Assembly (NCBI RefSeq): GCF_947493765.1
Contig: NZ_CANLSZ010000001.1
Coordinates: 310,001 to 374,000 of the forward strand
Direction of reading: 5' to 3'
Source: an uncultured Arthrobacter sp.
GTDB lineage: Bacteria > Actinomycetota > Actinomycetes > Actinomycetales > Micrococcaceae
Length of the DNA: 64,000 bases
A program made the translations under genes and the position numbers. Of this stretch, positions 5,205-35,834 are shown piece by piece (the first letter of the stretch is position 1; every line of letters begins with the position of its first letter). A model generated the notes under the pieces. The model ran no database searches. It saw only the letters and a program-made list of their open reading frames with translations, and was not told the DNA's origin.

Positions 5205-5283
5205 GTCGATCCCATTTTTCGCCGGTGGAAGTAGGGCAGGAACCGTCGTTCCCGGCGGCAGCTGCCTGAAGAGTGGGATCGAC
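5205..5283. repeat. GATCCCAC-family intergenic repeat, locus A (2 half-units)
   Basis: Outer 10-bp inverted repeat GTCGATCCCA...TGGGATCGAC; internal GTTCCC lies 40 bp after the first GATCCC; 3' half AGCTGCCTGAAGAGTGGGATCGAC resembles units at 11.9 kb. Confidence 0.75.
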
Positions 5284-5422
5284 AATCTGAGTCTGACGCC
5301 GTGAACCACCACTCCCGGACCTTCCAGCAGGATGGCGGGCACCGACGACCCGCTGAGGCGATGCTGCGTCGCGCTGGGGATCCTGCGCGGTATACAGACA
5401 TGGGGCAGGTAGCATCGGGCCC

Positions 5423-6685
5423 ATGAATCGGGGGACAGCAGCAGGCCGCACGCGATTGGGCTCGGCCCTGGCAGCAGCAGGGCTGACGAACGGGCCGATC
5501 GAGCTCCTCGACTTCCTCATCCCGCTCTGGGCCGGCATAGCCCTGCACGCCACTCCTGCCCAGGTGGGGTTCCTCGTCGCCGTCGAGCTCATCGTCTCCT
5601 TCTTCACCCGTCCGGTTGCGGGATACCTGGCCGACACCAGGAAGCGCGAAGTCGTCGCGGCCCTCGGCGCCCTCCTCTACGGGCTCTCGTGCCTGGGTTA
5701 TGCCCTGGCCGGGTCACTGTCGGTCGCCTATGGTGCAGCGGTGGTGGGCGGCCTGGGCGGTGCACTCCTCTGGGTGGCGCTCCGCGCCATGGTCGGGGAG
5801 CAGCTTCGATCGGATTCAGGAGTCTTCGCCCGCTTGATGTCCGTACAGGAAACCGGTGTGTGGATCGCTTTCGTCGCCGGTCTCCTGCTGCTGGGTCAGT
5901 TCGATTCGTTCCCACTGGTCTTCCGGGCCTGCGCCGGGGCATGCCTGATCGGCGCACTGATCCTGTTCCTCAGCCCAACCACGCCGACTGCACACCCCGC
6001 GCTTCAAGCCGACGGAACGGTCAACGACCACGAGGGTTCTCGGATCCCGGCACCGCCGGTCACCCGCAGCGCACGGGTCATGGTGCAGTCGCTGCGCCCG
6101 ATGCTCATCGCCACCGTGGTGACAGCGTTGGCCGAGACCATGGTCGCGATCCTGCTGCTCCTGCGTCTTCAGCGCGACCTGGATCTGGACGTCATCGAGA
6201 TCGCCTATGTCTTCCTTCCGGGGGCCATCGCCCTGGGAGTCCTCCCGCCGGTCCTCCACACCCTCGTCCTGCGGATCGGGCGCCGCAGAGCGATGGCCGC
6301 TGGTTCGGTCCTCAGCGGACTTTTCGCCATCTCCCTTGCCTATGCGGCCGGACCTGTGGTCGTAGCGGCCCTGTGGGTCCTGTGCGGCGTGGCCTGGGCG
6401 ATGGTGATACCGATAGAACAGGCCGTCGTGACCGAGAAGTACCCACTCCAGCTCGGGGCGGCGATGGGAATCTACACCGCCACGACGCTCATCGGCGCAG
6501 CGATAGGAGCATCGCTCGCGGGAATCCTGTACGACGTCGTGCCGTGGCCCGTCACCTGCATGGTGGCGGGCGCCATCATCCTCTCGGGCGCCGTCCTGGG
6601 TCCGTGGGCCATCACCAGACTCGGCGTCGCGGACAAACCAGCACCGAGCACTCCCGAGCCTCGGCCCACCGGTCCCGTCGCGTAA
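5423..6685 (+). CDS. MFS transporter
   Basis: About 12 hydrophobic segments; MFS-like GYLADTRKREVVAALGALLYG loop. Confidence 0.85.
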   Translation: MNRGTAAGRTRLGSALAAAGLTNGPIELLDFLIPLWAGIALHATPAQVGFLVAVELIVSFFTRPVAGYLADTRKREVVAALGALLYGLSCLGYALAGSLSVAYGAAVVGGLGGALLWVALRAMVGEQLRSDSGVFARLMSVQETGVWIAFVAGLLLLGQFDSFPLVFRACAGACLIGALILFLSPTTPTAHPALQADGTVNDHEGSRIPAPPVTRSARVMVQSLRPMLIATVVTALAETMVAILLLLRLQRDLDLDVIEIAYVFLPGAIALGVLPPVLHTLVLRIGRRRAMAAGSVLSGLFAISLAYAAGPVVVAALWVLCGVAWAMVIPIEQAVVTEKYPLQLGAAMGIYTATTLIGAAIGASLAGILYDVVPWPVTCMVAGAIILSGAVLGPWAITRLGVADKPAPSTPEPRPTGPVA

Positions 6686-6736
6686 GGGCGGTGGTCAGCC
6701 GACTGACTGCTGTAGCTCTAGTCCTGATCGCGCCGG

Positions 6737-6760
6737 TGCTCTCCGCAACGGGAGAGCACC
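6737..6760. terminator. Hairpin downstream of MFS gene
   Basis: GTGCTCTCC-gcaacg-GGAGAGCAC. Confidence 0.5.
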
Positions 6761-6982
6761 CGACCGAGCCAATGGGATCCGACTAGAATCCCGTGCTCTC
6801 CAATCGTTCGTGGGAGATCCGCTCCCGCAGGTCGTCGTCGTTCTGCCGGGTTAGATTGGGGTGACCATCGCCGCAGTAGATGGGCTCGAGATCGAGTCGT
6901 GAACGGGGCCGGTGCCACTCAACGCGTTGCTGCGATGGCTCGCCGTCGCACACGCACCAAGTAGTAGAAGGAGAGGCGTTCA

Positions 6983-7717
6983 ATGGACGACTTCATTACA
7001 GGAGGAGACTCTGGTCTGGTCATCGACTGGACCGAGATGCCGACCTACAACACCATCATGGCGATCGCCGCTGGTGCTGGTCTCATCTTCATCGTGATGA
7101 TCGGACGCGCACTGACCCGCAATGAGCGTTTCAAGCCCGAGGGCTGGGCCCTGACGGCTGGCGTGCTCGGTTTCCTGTTGACCACGACCGGCCTGCACAT
7201 GACCCTGACCTGGCCATTCGCGCGCTACTTCCCCTTCGACAACATTGTCTTCGGCGAGCCCAGCCTCGCCTTCGGGGTGCTGCTGCTGGCAACCGCCCTG
7301 TACCTCTGGAAGCGAGGCGGCCAGATCACCGAGGCCGAGGACCAGGCTGCAGAAGCCGCGAGCGTCGCTCGTCCGCTGGGGATCTTCGTCGTCGGCCTGG
7401 GCCTGGCTCTGTTCGGGATCGCCGCGGCGGGTCTCATCTTCCAGCTGTTCGCGGCCCCTCCTGAGGAGCCCGTCGCCGGGGTCTTCGCTGCCTACCCGAT
7501 GGTCGAAGCAGTCTTCATCTCCGGGCTCTTCGCGCTCATCGGATTAGGCGCGGTGCTGTTCCCCCTCGCGCTCAACACGTTCTCGTCCCACGGGAAGCTG
7601 ACGCCCCTCGTCCGCACTGTCGGGATTCTCTGGCTTGTGACGGGAATTGTCTTCCTGCTCTTCGGAGCAATGAACTTTTACACGCATATCGGCCTGATCG
7701 TCAATACCATGCAGTAG
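6983..7717 (+). CDS. Integral membrane protein, DUF981-like
   Basis: MDDFITGGDSGLVIDWTEMPTYNTIMAIAAGAGLIFIVMIGRAL..., several TM segments; SD AGAAGGAGAG upstream. Family name from memory. Confidence 0.65.
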   Translation: MDDFITGGDSGLVIDWTEMPTYNTIMAIAAGAGLIFIVMIGRALTRNERFKPEGWALTAGVLGFLLTTTGLHMTLTWPFARYFPFDNIVFGEPSLAFGVLLLATALYLWKRGGQITEAEDQAAEAASVARPLGIFVVGLGLALFGIAAAGLIFQLFAAPPEEPVAGVFAAYPMVEAVFISGLFALIGLGAVLFPLALNTFSSHGKLTPLVRTVGILWLVTGIVFLLFGAMNFYTHIGLIVNTMQ

Positions 7718-7768
7718 CCAGCTGTCCCTGTCAGTTCTGCCGGTAGTGGGCGGGAATCGACAGCCGTC

Positions 7769-8104
7769 CTACTCGTCGGGATGCGCGTCCGTCCTCTCGA
7801 CGTCGTCACGACCCGGCATGATCACGCCGCCCAGTGCTTCGACCGATTTGAGCAGGACCTTCGTCAGTTCCGCGTGGGGCTCGGGCACTTCGTCCGCCTC
7901 GTACTCGAACCGAATGGGCTGAGTGGGGGCCAGCCAGACGCTCATGGCAGCACGTCGCCCGTCGATCTGCCCCGAGGACCTGAGGAACAGGCCCTTGCCC
8001 GCGCGAAAGGTCATGATGATCACCGCTTGCATGGAACGCGTCAGGTTGTCCGGCATGTCAAACACCAGGTCTGTCTGGTATCCACCGATTCGTATCGCAC
8101 CCAT
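7769..8104 (-). CDS. Hypothetical protein
   Basis: MGAIRIGGYQTDLVFDMPDNLTRSMQAVIIMTFRAGKGLFLRSS...; ordinary coding-like composition. Confidence 0.6.
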   Translation of the reverse strand: MGAIRIGGYQTDLVFDMPDNLTRSMQAVIIMTFRAGKGLFLRSSGQIDGRRAAMSVWLAPTQPIRFEYEADEVPEPHAELTKVLLKSVEALGGVIMPGRDDVERTDAHPDE

Positions 8105-8182
8105 AACAGCGTCCTCCCGTTAGCCCGTTACCTGCGTACGCCGAGAGTAGGCGGTTCTCGAGGTGAGCGGGAGTGCATCGAT

Positions 8183-8216
8183 CACCGTCCACCGTCCACC
8201 GTCCACCGTCCACCGG
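8183..8216 (+). repeat. 7-bp tandem repeat (CACCGTC)n
   Basis: CACCGTC x4 plus a partial fifth unit, ending about 14 bp before the GNAT start codon. Confidence 0.9.
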
Positions 8217-8230
8217 GCAGACTGATCGGT

Positions 8231-8758
8231 ATGAGCACCACCGGAAGTCCCTCCCCCGTCCTCCGCAGCGGTCCCATCGAGCTGCGGCCCTACACGGAGA
8301 CGGACGAAGAAGCCTTCGTCGCCCTGTTCCAGGATCCCGAGGTCGTCCGGTACGTCGGCGACGGCCTGGAGACCGAGGAAGCCGATCGCGCTCTATTCCA
8401 CCGCGTCTTCTCCGAGGTGTATCCCGTGGACAAGTTCGCAGTATGGGCTGTGCTCGCCGAGGGCTCCGTCGTCGGACACGCTGAACTCAAGCCGTCACCT
8501 CGCGACGACGTCGACGGCTGGGAGCTCGTCTATGCGATCCGGCGCTCCCATTGGCGCAGGGGCTACGGTCGCCTCGTGGCATCGCTTGTCATCCGCTACG
8601 GGTTCGACGAACTCCGACTGCCGATGGTGTTCGCGACCGTCGACCTGGAGAACACGGCTTCGCTGGCGTTGCTGAAGGGCCTCGGCTTCGCGCAGGTCGG
8701 GGAGACTGTCGACAACGGGCAGCGGATCGCGGTCCTGTCGATACAGGCGCCTGAGTGA
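8231..8758 (+). CDS. GNAT family N-acetyltransferase (RimJ/RimL-like)
   Basis: MSTTGSPSPVLRSGPIELRPYTETDEEAFVALFQDPEVVRYVGDG...RRSHWRRGYGRLVASLVIRYGFDELRL. Confidence 0.88.
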   Translation: MSTTGSPSPVLRSGPIELRPYTETDEEAFVALFQDPEVVRYVGDGLETEEADRALFHRVFSEVYPVDKFAVWAVLAEGSVVGHAELKPSPRDDVDGWELVYAIRRSHWRRGYGRLVASLVIRYGFDELRLPMVFATVDLENTASLALLKGLGFAQVGETVDNGQRIAVLSIQAPE

Positions 8759-8829
8759 GAGCTGGAGCGCGAAGCGCGGTCGATGATCAAGGGGACAGGC
8801 CGCCGTCGTCGCGGCACACTCTCCCTGTT

Positions 8830-9342
8830 TCACTCCACTGCGTACTTGAATCCGCGATGTGAGCCGACGAATCCCAGGCGCTCGTAGAAGCGATGGGCGT
8901 CCTGCCGTGCCTCGTCGGAGGTGAGCTGTACCAGCCGTGCCCCGACCGAGAGGGCAGCGCTTTCCATGACCCACCGCAGCATCGCTGAGCCGATGCCACT
9001 CGATCTGTTGCCGCTGCTGACGCGGACTGCTTCGACCAGCAAGCGGGTCGAGCCGCCCCGCGCCAATCCAGGAATCCGCGTCAGTTGCATCATGGCCAGT
9101 GGTTCGTGCTCGGCGCCACTTACCACGAGCAGGTCGTTGGAGGGGTCCGCGACAATCGCCCTGAGAGCAATTCCGTAGGCGTCAGCATCTGCATCAGCAG
9201 CGTTGTCACCCCGTGTCGCACTGATCGGGTCGTCCGCGAGCAGGAGCCTCAGCGCGTCGAGGTCGTCAGGGGTAGCCCTGCGTAGAGTGAGGTCCTGGTC
9301 CTTGACATGGAGGGGAACCGGAAGGTTCAGCGACTGAATCAC
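8830..9342 (-). CDS. GNAT family N-acetyltransferase
   Basis: VIQSLNLPVPLHVKDQDLTLRRATPDDLDALRLLL...GIGSAMLRWVMESAALSVGARLVQLTSDEARQDAHRFYERLGF; GTG 9342 chosen inside ORF 8830..9402. Confidence 0.85.
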   Translation of the reverse strand: MIQSLNLPVPLHVKDQDLTLRRATPDDLDALRLLLADDPISATRGDNAADADADAYGIALRAIVADPSNDLLVVSGAEHEPLAMMQLTRIPGLARGGSTRLLVEAVRVSSGNRSSGIGSAMLRWVMESAALSVGARLVQLTSDEARQDAHRFYERLGFVGSHRGFKYAVE

Positions 9343-9664
9343 TCCTGAAGTGTCCCACTCACCATCGGCAGTGTTCGGCTGCACGGTCGAGCCAGTGCGC
9401 AAGGACGCTTTCGCGCTCGTATGGGTTCAGATCGACGCCCCACGGCAACGGTCACGTCTTCTGGCGAACCGTGGAAGCGCCACGCGCTCTGACGTCGTCG
9501 ACGGGGTGATCCCTGGGCAGATTGAACATTTCGACGAGCCGGTCGATGAGGAACCGATCATTAACGACGCCGACGACACCGCGTCGAGCAACAGGGTGCA
9601 GGAAGTCGTCGACGCAATTCGGTGCCGACGCAGTCACTGATCAACCGGCGCGTCCAAGAGTAGT

Positions 9665-9893
9665 TCAATCCCACCCCTGGCTGCTGGACCGTGGGATCGG
9701 GCGGTCGATCCCACTGCTGGCGGCTGAACTTTGGGAATGGGCGACGTCAGTCGGTCGATCCCACCGAAGCTACCGGAAAACTCGGACTGAACGGCGTCGG
9801 ACGGTTGATCCCACGGTCAATCCCACCGCTGGCGGCTGAACCGTGGGATCGGTCGGTCGATCCCACCGAAGCTACCGGAGAAGTGGGAGCGGT
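9665..9893. repeat. GATCCCAC-family intergenic repeat array, locus B (6 half-units)
   Basis: (A/G)ATCCCAC at 9667, 9707, 9757, 9807, 9819, 9859: steps 40, 50, 50, 12, 40; several pair with downstream GTGGGA(T). Confidence 0.85.
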
Positions 9894-10044
9894 CAGACCG
9901 AGTGCGGCGTCGCGGCCGCAACTGCCCTCGTGCTCTGGTGCACCGGCTCGCAATTCATCTGCTCGCGCGGCATTGCACCACAGTCCGAATATCGCGGCGG
10001 GAAGATGTCGGGCCCAGGAACCTGAGCATCCGACACGGAAACGG

Positions 10045-10302
10045 TCAGCACCAGTACACATCGCTGCGGTGGCCCGGGGTTATCTTTGCCACGACGACGA
10101 CATTGTCATCGACGGTATACATGAGGCAGTAGTTCCCGACGCGAGCCCGGAGTCCGGCGCGCCCCTGGAGTGGCGTGGCTTCCGGCGGCCGCGGGTCCGT
10201 AGCAAGGAGTGCTATTGCTCCGCGACGACGGTCTCGATCCTGCTGGCCGATTCGCTTCAGCGCGCAGACCGCGGCGGGGCGCAACTCGATGCGGTACTTC
10301 AC
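10045..10302 (-). CDS. RelE/ParE-family toxin, probably impaired
   Basis: VKYRIELRPAAVCALKRIGQQDRDRRRGAIALLATDPRPPEATPLQGRAGLRARVGNYCLMYTVDDNVVVVAKITPGHRSDVYWC; GTGA overlap with the antitoxin remnant; expected GxYR reads GNYC. Confidence 0.8.
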   Translation of the reverse strand: MKYRIELRPAAVCALKRIGQQDRDRRRGAIALLATDPRPPEATPLQGRAGLRARVGNYCLMYTVDDNVVVVAKITPGHRSDVYWC

Positions 10303-10560
10303 GTCCAGCCCAGGTCGGCCTTCACCTGCGCCCACGGGATGCCGGGGCCCTCCTCGGCCATCGCCTCGTCGAACGCCTTGACGTCCTCAGCGTCCTCGAA
10401 GGCCTCGAGCATCCGCTCGTACTGTTCAGGACTCACGACGACGGCTGCCTGTGTTCATGCGCTCGATACATGCTGCTTCGCCCTTGGCGCGGGCGATGAC
10501 GTCGGAAAAGTGATTGCGCGCGTCGGCAATGCTGATGGTGGACCTGACTTGATCACACAT
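10299..10560 (-). pseudogene. Phd/YefM-family antitoxin, frameshifted
   Basis: Frame 1: MCDQVRSTISIADARNHFSDVIARAKGEAACIERMN then TGSRRRES*; next frame continues QAAVVVSPEQYERMLEAFEDAEDVKAFDEAMAEEGPGIPWAQVKADLGWT*. Confidence 0.8.
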
Positions 10561-10737
10561 TTGGTACATGGGGGTGTATATCAAAGAACGCAGCGAGGCA
10601 GCTGACCCAAAGCTCGTGTCAAGCTCGTCACCGTTCTGGGCTACCAGATCCACCTGGTGGAGACTGAAGCAGTGGTCCCGGCGGAACCGAACGCGCACGA
10701 ACACAGCTGCAGTGAGTCATCATCGAGAAGGAACCTC

Positions 10738-11754
10738 ATGTCACAGCACAAGATTCACGAGATCCGATTGGCGAGCTTCGTCGAGGAAACCTTCCAACCC
10801 GATAATTTCGACGTCGCTGAAGCCGAGATCGAGACGACACTCGAGGACGGCCAGGTGCTCGTCAAGGCTCTGCGTTTCGGTCTGAATGCCGGGTTGGCGA
10901 ATCGCATCTCGGGTGGCTCCGGGCCGAGCACCCGCGCCCAGATGGCCGTGGGCGAGGTGCCGCAGAGTGATGCAGTCATGGAGGTGATCGAGTCGAAGAC
11001 CGAGGACTTCTCCCCCGGCGACCTGGTGGTACAACAGTGGGCGCCGTGGCGGACCCAGGACGTGGTTTCCGCCAGCCACCTCCGCAAGATCCGGGACGAA
11101 GTGCGAGATCTGCCGCTGGAATACCACCTCACGGTCCTCGGCCACGTGGGCTTCACCGGCTGGGTAGGACTGGTCCATGTAGGTCAGGTGGACCCTGAGG
11201 ATGTCGTCTTCGTCTCTGCTGCCTCGGGCGGCGTGGGCAGCTGCGTGGTCCAGTTCGCGGCGGCGAAGGGCGCCCGCGTGATCGGCAGCGCGGGCTCCGC
11301 GGAGAAGGTCGCACTGGTTCAGGACCTCGGTGCGGACTCCTGTATCAACTACCACGAGGGCGATCCGACGGAGCTTCTGGCCAGCGCCGCCCCCGACGGC
11401 ATCACGCTCTACTTCGACAATGTGGGCGGGCCCCTGCTGGAGGCAGCACTCGACCAGTTGCAAATGCACGGGACAGTGGTGATCTGTGGAGCGGTGTCCC
11501 AGTACGGGCAGAAGTCGCCGCAGGGACCGTCCAATTACCTCCGGATGATTTCGCATGAACTCACGATGCGGGGCTTCGCGGTCACAGAGCACGAGGATCT
11601 GCGAACGGCCTTCGAGCAGGAGGTGGGCACGTGGGTGCGTGCTAGTACGGTCACCAGCCTGCACACGGTGTTCGAGGGCTTCGACGCAATTCCGGAGGCC
11701 TTCGCCGCCCAGCTCGGTGGTGGAACGCGCGGTCGTGTGATCGTGGCCCTGTAG
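10738..11754 (+). CDS. NADP-dependent oxidoreductase (MDR superfamily, zinc-free type)
   Basis: VFVSAASGGVGSCVVQFAAAKGARVIGSAGSAEKVALVQDLGADSCINYHEGD; FDNVGGPLLEAALDQL. Confidence 0.9.
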   Translation: MSQHKIHEIRLASFVEETFQPDNFDVAEAEIETTLEDGQVLVKALRFGLNAGLANRISGGSGPSTRAQMAVGEVPQSDAVMEVIESKTEDFSPGDLVVQQWAPWRTQDVVSASHLRKIRDEVRDLPLEYHLTVLGHVGFTGWVGLVHVGQVDPEDVVFVSAASGGVGSCVVQFAAAKGARVIGSAGSAEKVALVQDLGADSCINYHEGDPTELLASAAPDGITLYFDNVGGPLLEAALDQLQMHGTVVICGAVSQYGQKSPQGPSNYLRMISHELTMRGFAVTEHEDLRTAFEQEVGTWVRASTVTSLHTVFEGFDAIPEAFAAQLGGGTRGRVIVAL

Positions 11755-11845
11755 CTGACGAGAGCGGTCGACGCTGATCTCGCCCGTGACACTCTGCCGT
11801 CAATGGTGCACCGGTCACGCATGCTGGATTAGTCGACGTCGGCCA

Positions 11846-12122
11846 GTCGATCCCACACTCGGCGGTTGAAGAGTGGGAGATCGGCGCGGAGACATCTTCC
11901 GATCCCACTGCTGGCGGCTGATGTCAGGGAAGGACGTGCCGATCCCACGGAAGCTGCGTGAAGAGTGGGGTCAACCGACGTGGACCGGTCGATCCCACAG
12001 TCGGCGGTTGAAGAGTGGGAGATTGGCCTGAATGCATCTTCCGATCCCACAGCTGACGGCTGACGTCCGGGAATGAACTGTCGATCCCACGGAAGCCGCG
12101 CGAAGAATGGGATCGACCGACG
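11846..12122. repeat. GATCCCAC-family intergenic repeat array, locus C (two 142-bp copies)
   Basis: GATCCCAC at 11849, 11901, 11941, 11991, 12043, 12083: steps 52, 40, 50, 52, 40, so three motifs repeat with exact 142-bp period. Confidence 0.9.
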
Positions 12123-35812: not shown

Positions 35813-35834
35813 GGGTGGGATCCTGATCCCACCC
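35813..35834. repeat. 22-bp palindrome GGGTGGGATC-ct-GATCCCACCC
   Basis: Inverted repeat directly downstream of kgd, carrying GTGGGATC/GATCCCAC. Confidence 0.8.

Follow-up and report, generated by a model that had tools for sequence, protein, structure and literature searches.

What are the short inverted repeats that recur between the genes of this Arthrobacter sp., and which protein, if any, accompanies them? The three intergenic repeat loci that a first-pass annotation had placed in the window (the whole stretch of DNA analysed here, 64,000 nucleotides) are present at the coordinates it gave, based on the sequence and a half-site scan (Table 1), and its half-site steps of 40/50/50/12/40 bp in array B and 52/40/50/52/40 bp in array C were reproduced. 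The unit it described, a half-site, a core and a second half-site, is real; as a refinement, TCCCA and TGGGA are separated by exactly 18 nt. The repeat unit is a TCCCA-N18-TGGGA palindrome with the consensus CGNTCCCAC-N16-GTGGGANCG, in which TCCCA and TGGGA are the invariant part. Outside the arrays, a lone inverted half-site pair (GTGGGATCC/TGATCCCAC) at 35815-35832 is possibly a chance occurrence in coding DNA. Between arrays B and C lies a ParE-type toxin gene (Pfam ParE_toxin; 10045-10335, minus strand), with a small gene upstream of it (about 10426-10704, minus strand) that resembles its antitoxin.

Table 1. Repeat arrays of the window and their component units (window coordinates).
Feature	Position	Strand	Content
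Array A	5207..5281		One degenerate two-unit module (CGATCCCAT...GTGGGATCG); tRNA-Arg on one side, MFS-type gene on the other
Array B	9666..9891		Full units 9666-9699, 9706-9739, 9818-9851, 9858-9891; half-site starts 9666, 9706, 9756, 9806, 9818, 9858
Array B, remainder	9756-9789; 9806		Degenerate unit; lone half-site
Array C	11848..12115		Full units 11848-11881, 11990-12023, 12082-12115; half-site starts 11848, 11900, 11940, 11990, 12042, 12082
Array C, remainder	11900; 11940; 12042		Starts of degenerate units

The repeats are real and beyond chance. In the 2.99-Mb host genome (labelled G000), TCGATCCCAC occurs 53 times versus once for the reversed control, TCCCAC-N16-GTGGGA 46 times versus 3, and the two-unit module with at most two mismatches 45 times versus 0; some single matches of the 10-mer fall in coding DNA and are chance. 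In 70 pairs of this genome, TCCCA and TGGGA start exactly 23 nt apart, with adjacent offsets near zero, and same-direction unit steps fall at 40 bp (40 cases), 50-52 bp (36) and 61-63 bp (42), with a weak class at 71 bp and very few steps between these classes. Successive classes differ by about one helical turn; this phasing of about 10.5 bp supports the earlier reading of the 40 and 50-52 bp steps as close to 4 and 5 turns. Loci of other species show identical step classes, although the 40-bp step was built into the search pattern there. The host carries at least a dozen intergenic arrays, including very long ones of 0.8-1.1 kb with about 15-17 units (contig 8, 1225-2005, L042; contig 1, 1827-2913, L046). 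A contig of Arthrobacter echini AM23 starts within such a long array (L138), and long arrays may therefore break assemblies.

With gene context judged from sequence stretches using a simple GC3-based gene caller, none of 55 arrays lay within predicted genes, and arrays were enriched in convergent gaps (p=0.0025) and depleted in divergent ones. This placement and the genome-wide copies support the earlier suggestion of a dispersed intergenic BIME- or REP-like palindrome family. Like the repeats described here, the BIMEs of enterobacteria are intergenic arrays of inverted palindromic units, but they differ in unit sequence, in half-site geometry (fixed at 23/17 bp here) and in the cognate gene. 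When about 85,000 species genomes, which may omit records of the window's own genome, were scanned with the two-unit pattern, 41 stretches were returned, all from Arthrobacter except one from a MAG named Renibacterium sp. (Micrococcaceae). Modules were present in 25 of 39 Arthrobacter genomes, at 1 to 45 each, while all control counts were zero. The first-pass annotation would have been refuted by an absence of further copies, by random spacing elsewhere or by identity to a catalogued family; copies were found both in the host genome and in its relatives, their steps fall into the same classes, and no matching REP or MITE family and no catalogued name were found in the searchable literature. 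The host is close to A. echini, with orthologous flanks roughly 82-93% identical to those of strains AM23 and P9; both strains have arrays at the same loci, with strongly diverged and locally homogenised content. Orthologous arrays are retained at identical loci in several species, and module movement is therefore slow or past.

In most species the repeat is a single 68-bp palindrome of four half-sites, TCCCA-N18-TGGGA-N12-TCCCA-N18-TGGGA, with a palindromic 12-bp linker that is often TGTCTAGACA. Judged by sequence comparison, this single module is the ancestral form, which the A. echini group, including the host, expanded into arrays. The arms of single modules show compensatory changes: over the full-length dyad of 22 diverse single modules, 102 cells were altered on both sides, versus 61.9 in shuffled sets (reached in 0/500), and slid versions of the dyad dropped to 39-44 cells. 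The two-unit fold was likewise above shuffles, and the module of Arthrobacter 3-341 (L088) folds into one long hairpin. The proposed covariation check was thus borne out for single modules of other species and failed for A. echini-type arrays, where no within-unit hairpin covariation was detected. Because covariation is gone in these arrays, the pairing favours DNA palindrome symmetry, or processing of the mobile form as a cruciform or hairpin, over a kept RNA structure, and an RNA hairpin role for arrays was set aside. It remains conceivable that the repeats act at the RNA level as bidirectional terminators or mRNA-stabilising hairpins, as the long single-module hairpin, its compensatory changes and the convergent-gap preference would suggest; however, the loss of covariation, the DNA-helix phasing of the steps and the lack of an RNA family match (in the window, Rfam matched nothing beyond tRNA and tmRNA) render this very improbable indeed.

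To identify a partner, proteins at module loci were compared for recurring neighbours. One gene, encoding an AbiEi_4 winged helix and an MTES_1575 domain (Vsr-like nuclease; MTES_1575/DUF559), lies between two modules at non-orthologous loci; the host copy is on contig 5, outside the window. In a census of the genus, the bracketed genes form one clade with at least 50% mutual identity and less than 50% identity to paralogs. Modules flank the genes of this clade on both sides in 13/21 cases and on one side in a further 6/21, with a background of 0 modules in 100 kb. The distance between module and gene is usually about 10-120 bp, reaching up to about 430 bp in array-bearing echini-type genomes. 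Among 39 genomes, 19 have gene and modules, 6 modules only, 3 the gene only and 11 neither (Fisher p=0.002, uncorrected for phylogeny and with broken gene copies counted). Two genomes (G117, G262) contain the gene without typical dispersed modules, and one (G196) retains only a gene remnant adjoining a module. Other neighbour clusters recurring across loci, namely ABC transporters and zinc-type oxidoreductases, look like common paralogs and were discounted.

The first-pass annotation had suggested looking for a transposase/RAYT or a DNA-binding protein. A Y1 (HuH, IS200-like) transposase (PF01797) was detected in none of 16 genomes of the genus, including the host, and in only one of 24 overall (G146, from another genus); missing from 23/24 genomes, it was rejected as the module partner, and the winged-helix nuclease gene takes its place. 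The exceptional genome carries pieces of the transposase (L092/L093, C1:113468-113831), and also a bracketed nuclease remnant (L144; GGGGACATAAGTACTTATGTCCCC). Plasmid carriage was limited to 4 distant matches among 72,556 plasmids. No report pairing AbiEi with DUF559 or MTES_1575 and repeats was found in the open-access literature.

The type of half-site matches the gene. Modules with GCCCA...TGGGC half-sites bracket the gene in G267, G257, G248 and G252, where 18, 10, 6 and 3 copies, respectively, are dispersed, and are absent (0 copies) from the TCCCA-type genomes G000, G268 and G160. Modules at different loci are more alike within a genome (0.68) than between genomes (0.54; 0/2000 permutations), as are their linkers (0.80 versus 0.56). 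At the level of sequence comparison, these patterns demonstrate coevolution of gene and module.

The cassette of module, gene and module is observed beside an Aldedh/MaoC gene (locus I) in many species, in orientations that vary among them, and at a different locus in G160 and H20. Three gene copies occur in G257 and two in G269, with module-like flanks. Where locus I lacks the cassette, the gap measures 47-237 bp versus about 1.0-1.25 kb when occupied, and at one A. bussei module locus six relatives have an empty gap of 36-79 bp and two a related module. The flanks of occupied and empty gaps are too diverged to reveal a target-site duplication, and no exact footprint of excision was resolved either; transposition is therefore only inferred, and the second locus, inverted orientation and extra copies are no more than suggestive of cleavage-driven gene copying.

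A structure predicted from a five-sequence alignment (mean pLDDT 77) gave moderate evidence on fold. The best match was the EDxHD homing endonuclease I-Bth0305I (3r3p; E 0.007, probability 1.00), followed by an AbiEi antitoxin (E 0.013), whereas the PDB sequence search and NCBIfam returned no match. E172, D199, H216 and D225 are invariant in the five proteins and are putative catalytic residues, inferred to be equivalent to those of EDxHD enzymes; the fold and catalytic residues that define this group are thus present, subject to that inference. AbiEi proteins bind cooperatively to inverted repeats of 23 bp, with Rv2827c binding two such pairs (PMC7319586), and I-Bth0305I forms a dimer on its target of nearly 60 bp (PMC3943268). 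Because of these fold matches and binding modes, we propose that the winged-helix part would bind half-sites of the TCCCA type, which each module would present as two inverted pairs on the same face of the helix, and that the nuclease part would cut at or near the palindrome. Repair or recombination could then copy, invert or move modules, at times as a whole module-gene-module cassette, and local duplication in the A. echini lineage, including the host, may have converted single modules into arrays. Binding to the module, cleavage and active mobility are all inferred.

The same evidence allows the module to be a mere operator of an AbiEi-like winged-helix protein, its dispersed copies forming a regulon or titration sites and the nuclease having no part in their spread. 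AbiEi binds its paired repeats upstream of its own gene, the two pairs of Rv2827c recall the module (PMC7319586), the fold matches AbiEi and the half-sites are phased at about 10.5 bp. However, modules also occur downstream of the gene, dispersed copies prefer promoterless convergent gaps and are depleted in divergent ones, and the putative catalytic residues are conserved, which leaves an operator unlikely, though still to be reckoned with. A self/non-self or restriction-like device, in which the nuclease would target incoming DNA and the palindromes would mark, protect or attract it, could be read from the fusion of a Vsr/REase-type nuclease to a winged helix and from PADLOC profiles touching both parts. 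These matches are partial and at the domain level only, the one-gene cassette leaves no room for a methylase or toxin partner, and the palindromes are dispersed and species-typed; we therefore consider such a device quite improbable.

Bracketing is not confined to one clade. A paralogous nuclease clade is bracketed by another palindrome, GCGTGTC-N7-GACACGC, in G100, G117, G147, G248, G250, G255, G256 and G258, and this palindrome is also dispersed, with up to 9 copies per genome (at places including L114, L117, L173, L176 and L179). Similarity between the two flanks exceeded the 99th percentile of the genomic null in 12/16 paralogs (binomial test applied), and in 16/26 homologs from across the order flank similarity passed the null at p<=0.02, with a sequence that differs from one homolog to the next. 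In a genome from a different genus of this family (G008), each of the five gene copies examined (L288-L292) has a bracketing repeat unlike those of the others; three of these repeats are long nested palindromes, and one example of the brackets is AGACCCATAACTGTTATGGGTCT. We tentatively suggest, at slightly less than even odds, that Actinomycetes hold a large undescribed class of repeat systems in which every gene for a winged helix joined to a Vsr/EDxHD-type nuclease is enclosed by a four-half-site palindrome of its own and also spreads it. Such a class would mirror REP/RAYT with an enzyme derived from a homing-type nuclease, and would comprise many independent gene-palindrome pairs. The recurrence of brackets of other sequence around paralogs at many loci across the order also bears on the idea that the modules are no more than REP/BIME elements of the ordinary kind, or sites for a nucleoid- or chromosome-organising protein, with the nuclease gene present by chance in a module-rich locus. 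Helical phasing, conserved loci, intergenic placement and the six genomes with modules but without the gene fit that idea, but coincidence cannot give such recurrence and the Y1/RAYT gene is missing from 23/24 genomes, making it improbable.

We favour, at a probability of roughly 0.6, the reading that the repeats are dispersed copies of the recognition module of a single-gene, REP/RAYT-like system built on a winged-helix plus Vsr/EDxHD-type nuclease. Against it stand the lack of a resolved target-site duplication, the persistent loci, the gene-less module genomes, the weak fold E-values, the five-sequence model, the uncorrected co-occurrence and the covariation lost in arrays. In common with REP/REPIN elements and their RAYTs (REPtrons, TIRtrons; PMC3116915, PMC8049555, PMC3733652, PMC8266576), the repeats are short, dispersed, extragenic palindromes of species-specific sequence that prefer convergent gaps, with a usually single-copy nuclease gene carrying the same palindrome on both flanks and decayed in some genomes where the repeats are kept. 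The copy number, intergenic placement, folds and covariation fit the definition of a REP as a many-copy, hairpin-forming extragenic palindrome. The REPtron arrangement, in which one dispersed palindrome stands on either side of the enzyme gene, is also present, but with a different enzyme family. Unlike REPs, however, the module is 68 bp long with four half-sites and forms arrays with 10.5-bp-phased steps. A GTAG/CGTC foot like that of REP palindromes is not apparent by eye in the Arthrobacter modules inspected (no formal count). Since the Y1 (HuH) transposase is absent from the 16 genomes of the genus examined and the enzyme is of another kind, the Arthrobacter system works like REP/RAYT but is no member.

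The AbiE type IV toxin-antitoxin systems and AbiEi-family antitoxins (PMC7319586, PMC3985639) share the N-terminal winged helix and paired inverted repeats by the gene, but in the Arthrobacter protein a C-terminal nuclease replaces the antitoxin domain and the repeats lie on both flanks and are dispersed. The bicistronic AbiE operon with a nucleotidyltransferase toxin is not matched, as the locus I cassette has room for one gene of about 0.8 kb plus modules and, judged from space only, none for a toxin gene. I-Bth0305I (PMC3943268) and the Vsr-like MTES_1575 domain (PMC3710099) share the matched nuclease fold, the invariant E...D...H...D and, by inference, a long dimeric target, whereas the Arthrobacter gene is free-standing in the host with its own palindromic brackets, outside an intron or phage gene.

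The Arthrobacter nuclease and its repeats thus appear to be an undescribed counterpart of REP/RAYT systems. To our knowledge, Y1 transposases are the sole established enzymatic partners of dispersed palindromes in bacteria. For many repeat families, CGTC REPs among them, no enzyme is known (PMC3733652). A second, unrelated enzyme class, if true, would account for orphan repeats in Actinomycetes, give a function to abundant genes that now carry the annotation AbiEi antitoxin or DUF559, and offer many natural protein-palindrome pairs in which DNA recognition and copying could be tested. Mobility is currently inferred, but copying, if demonstrated, would make the Arthrobacter system a new class.
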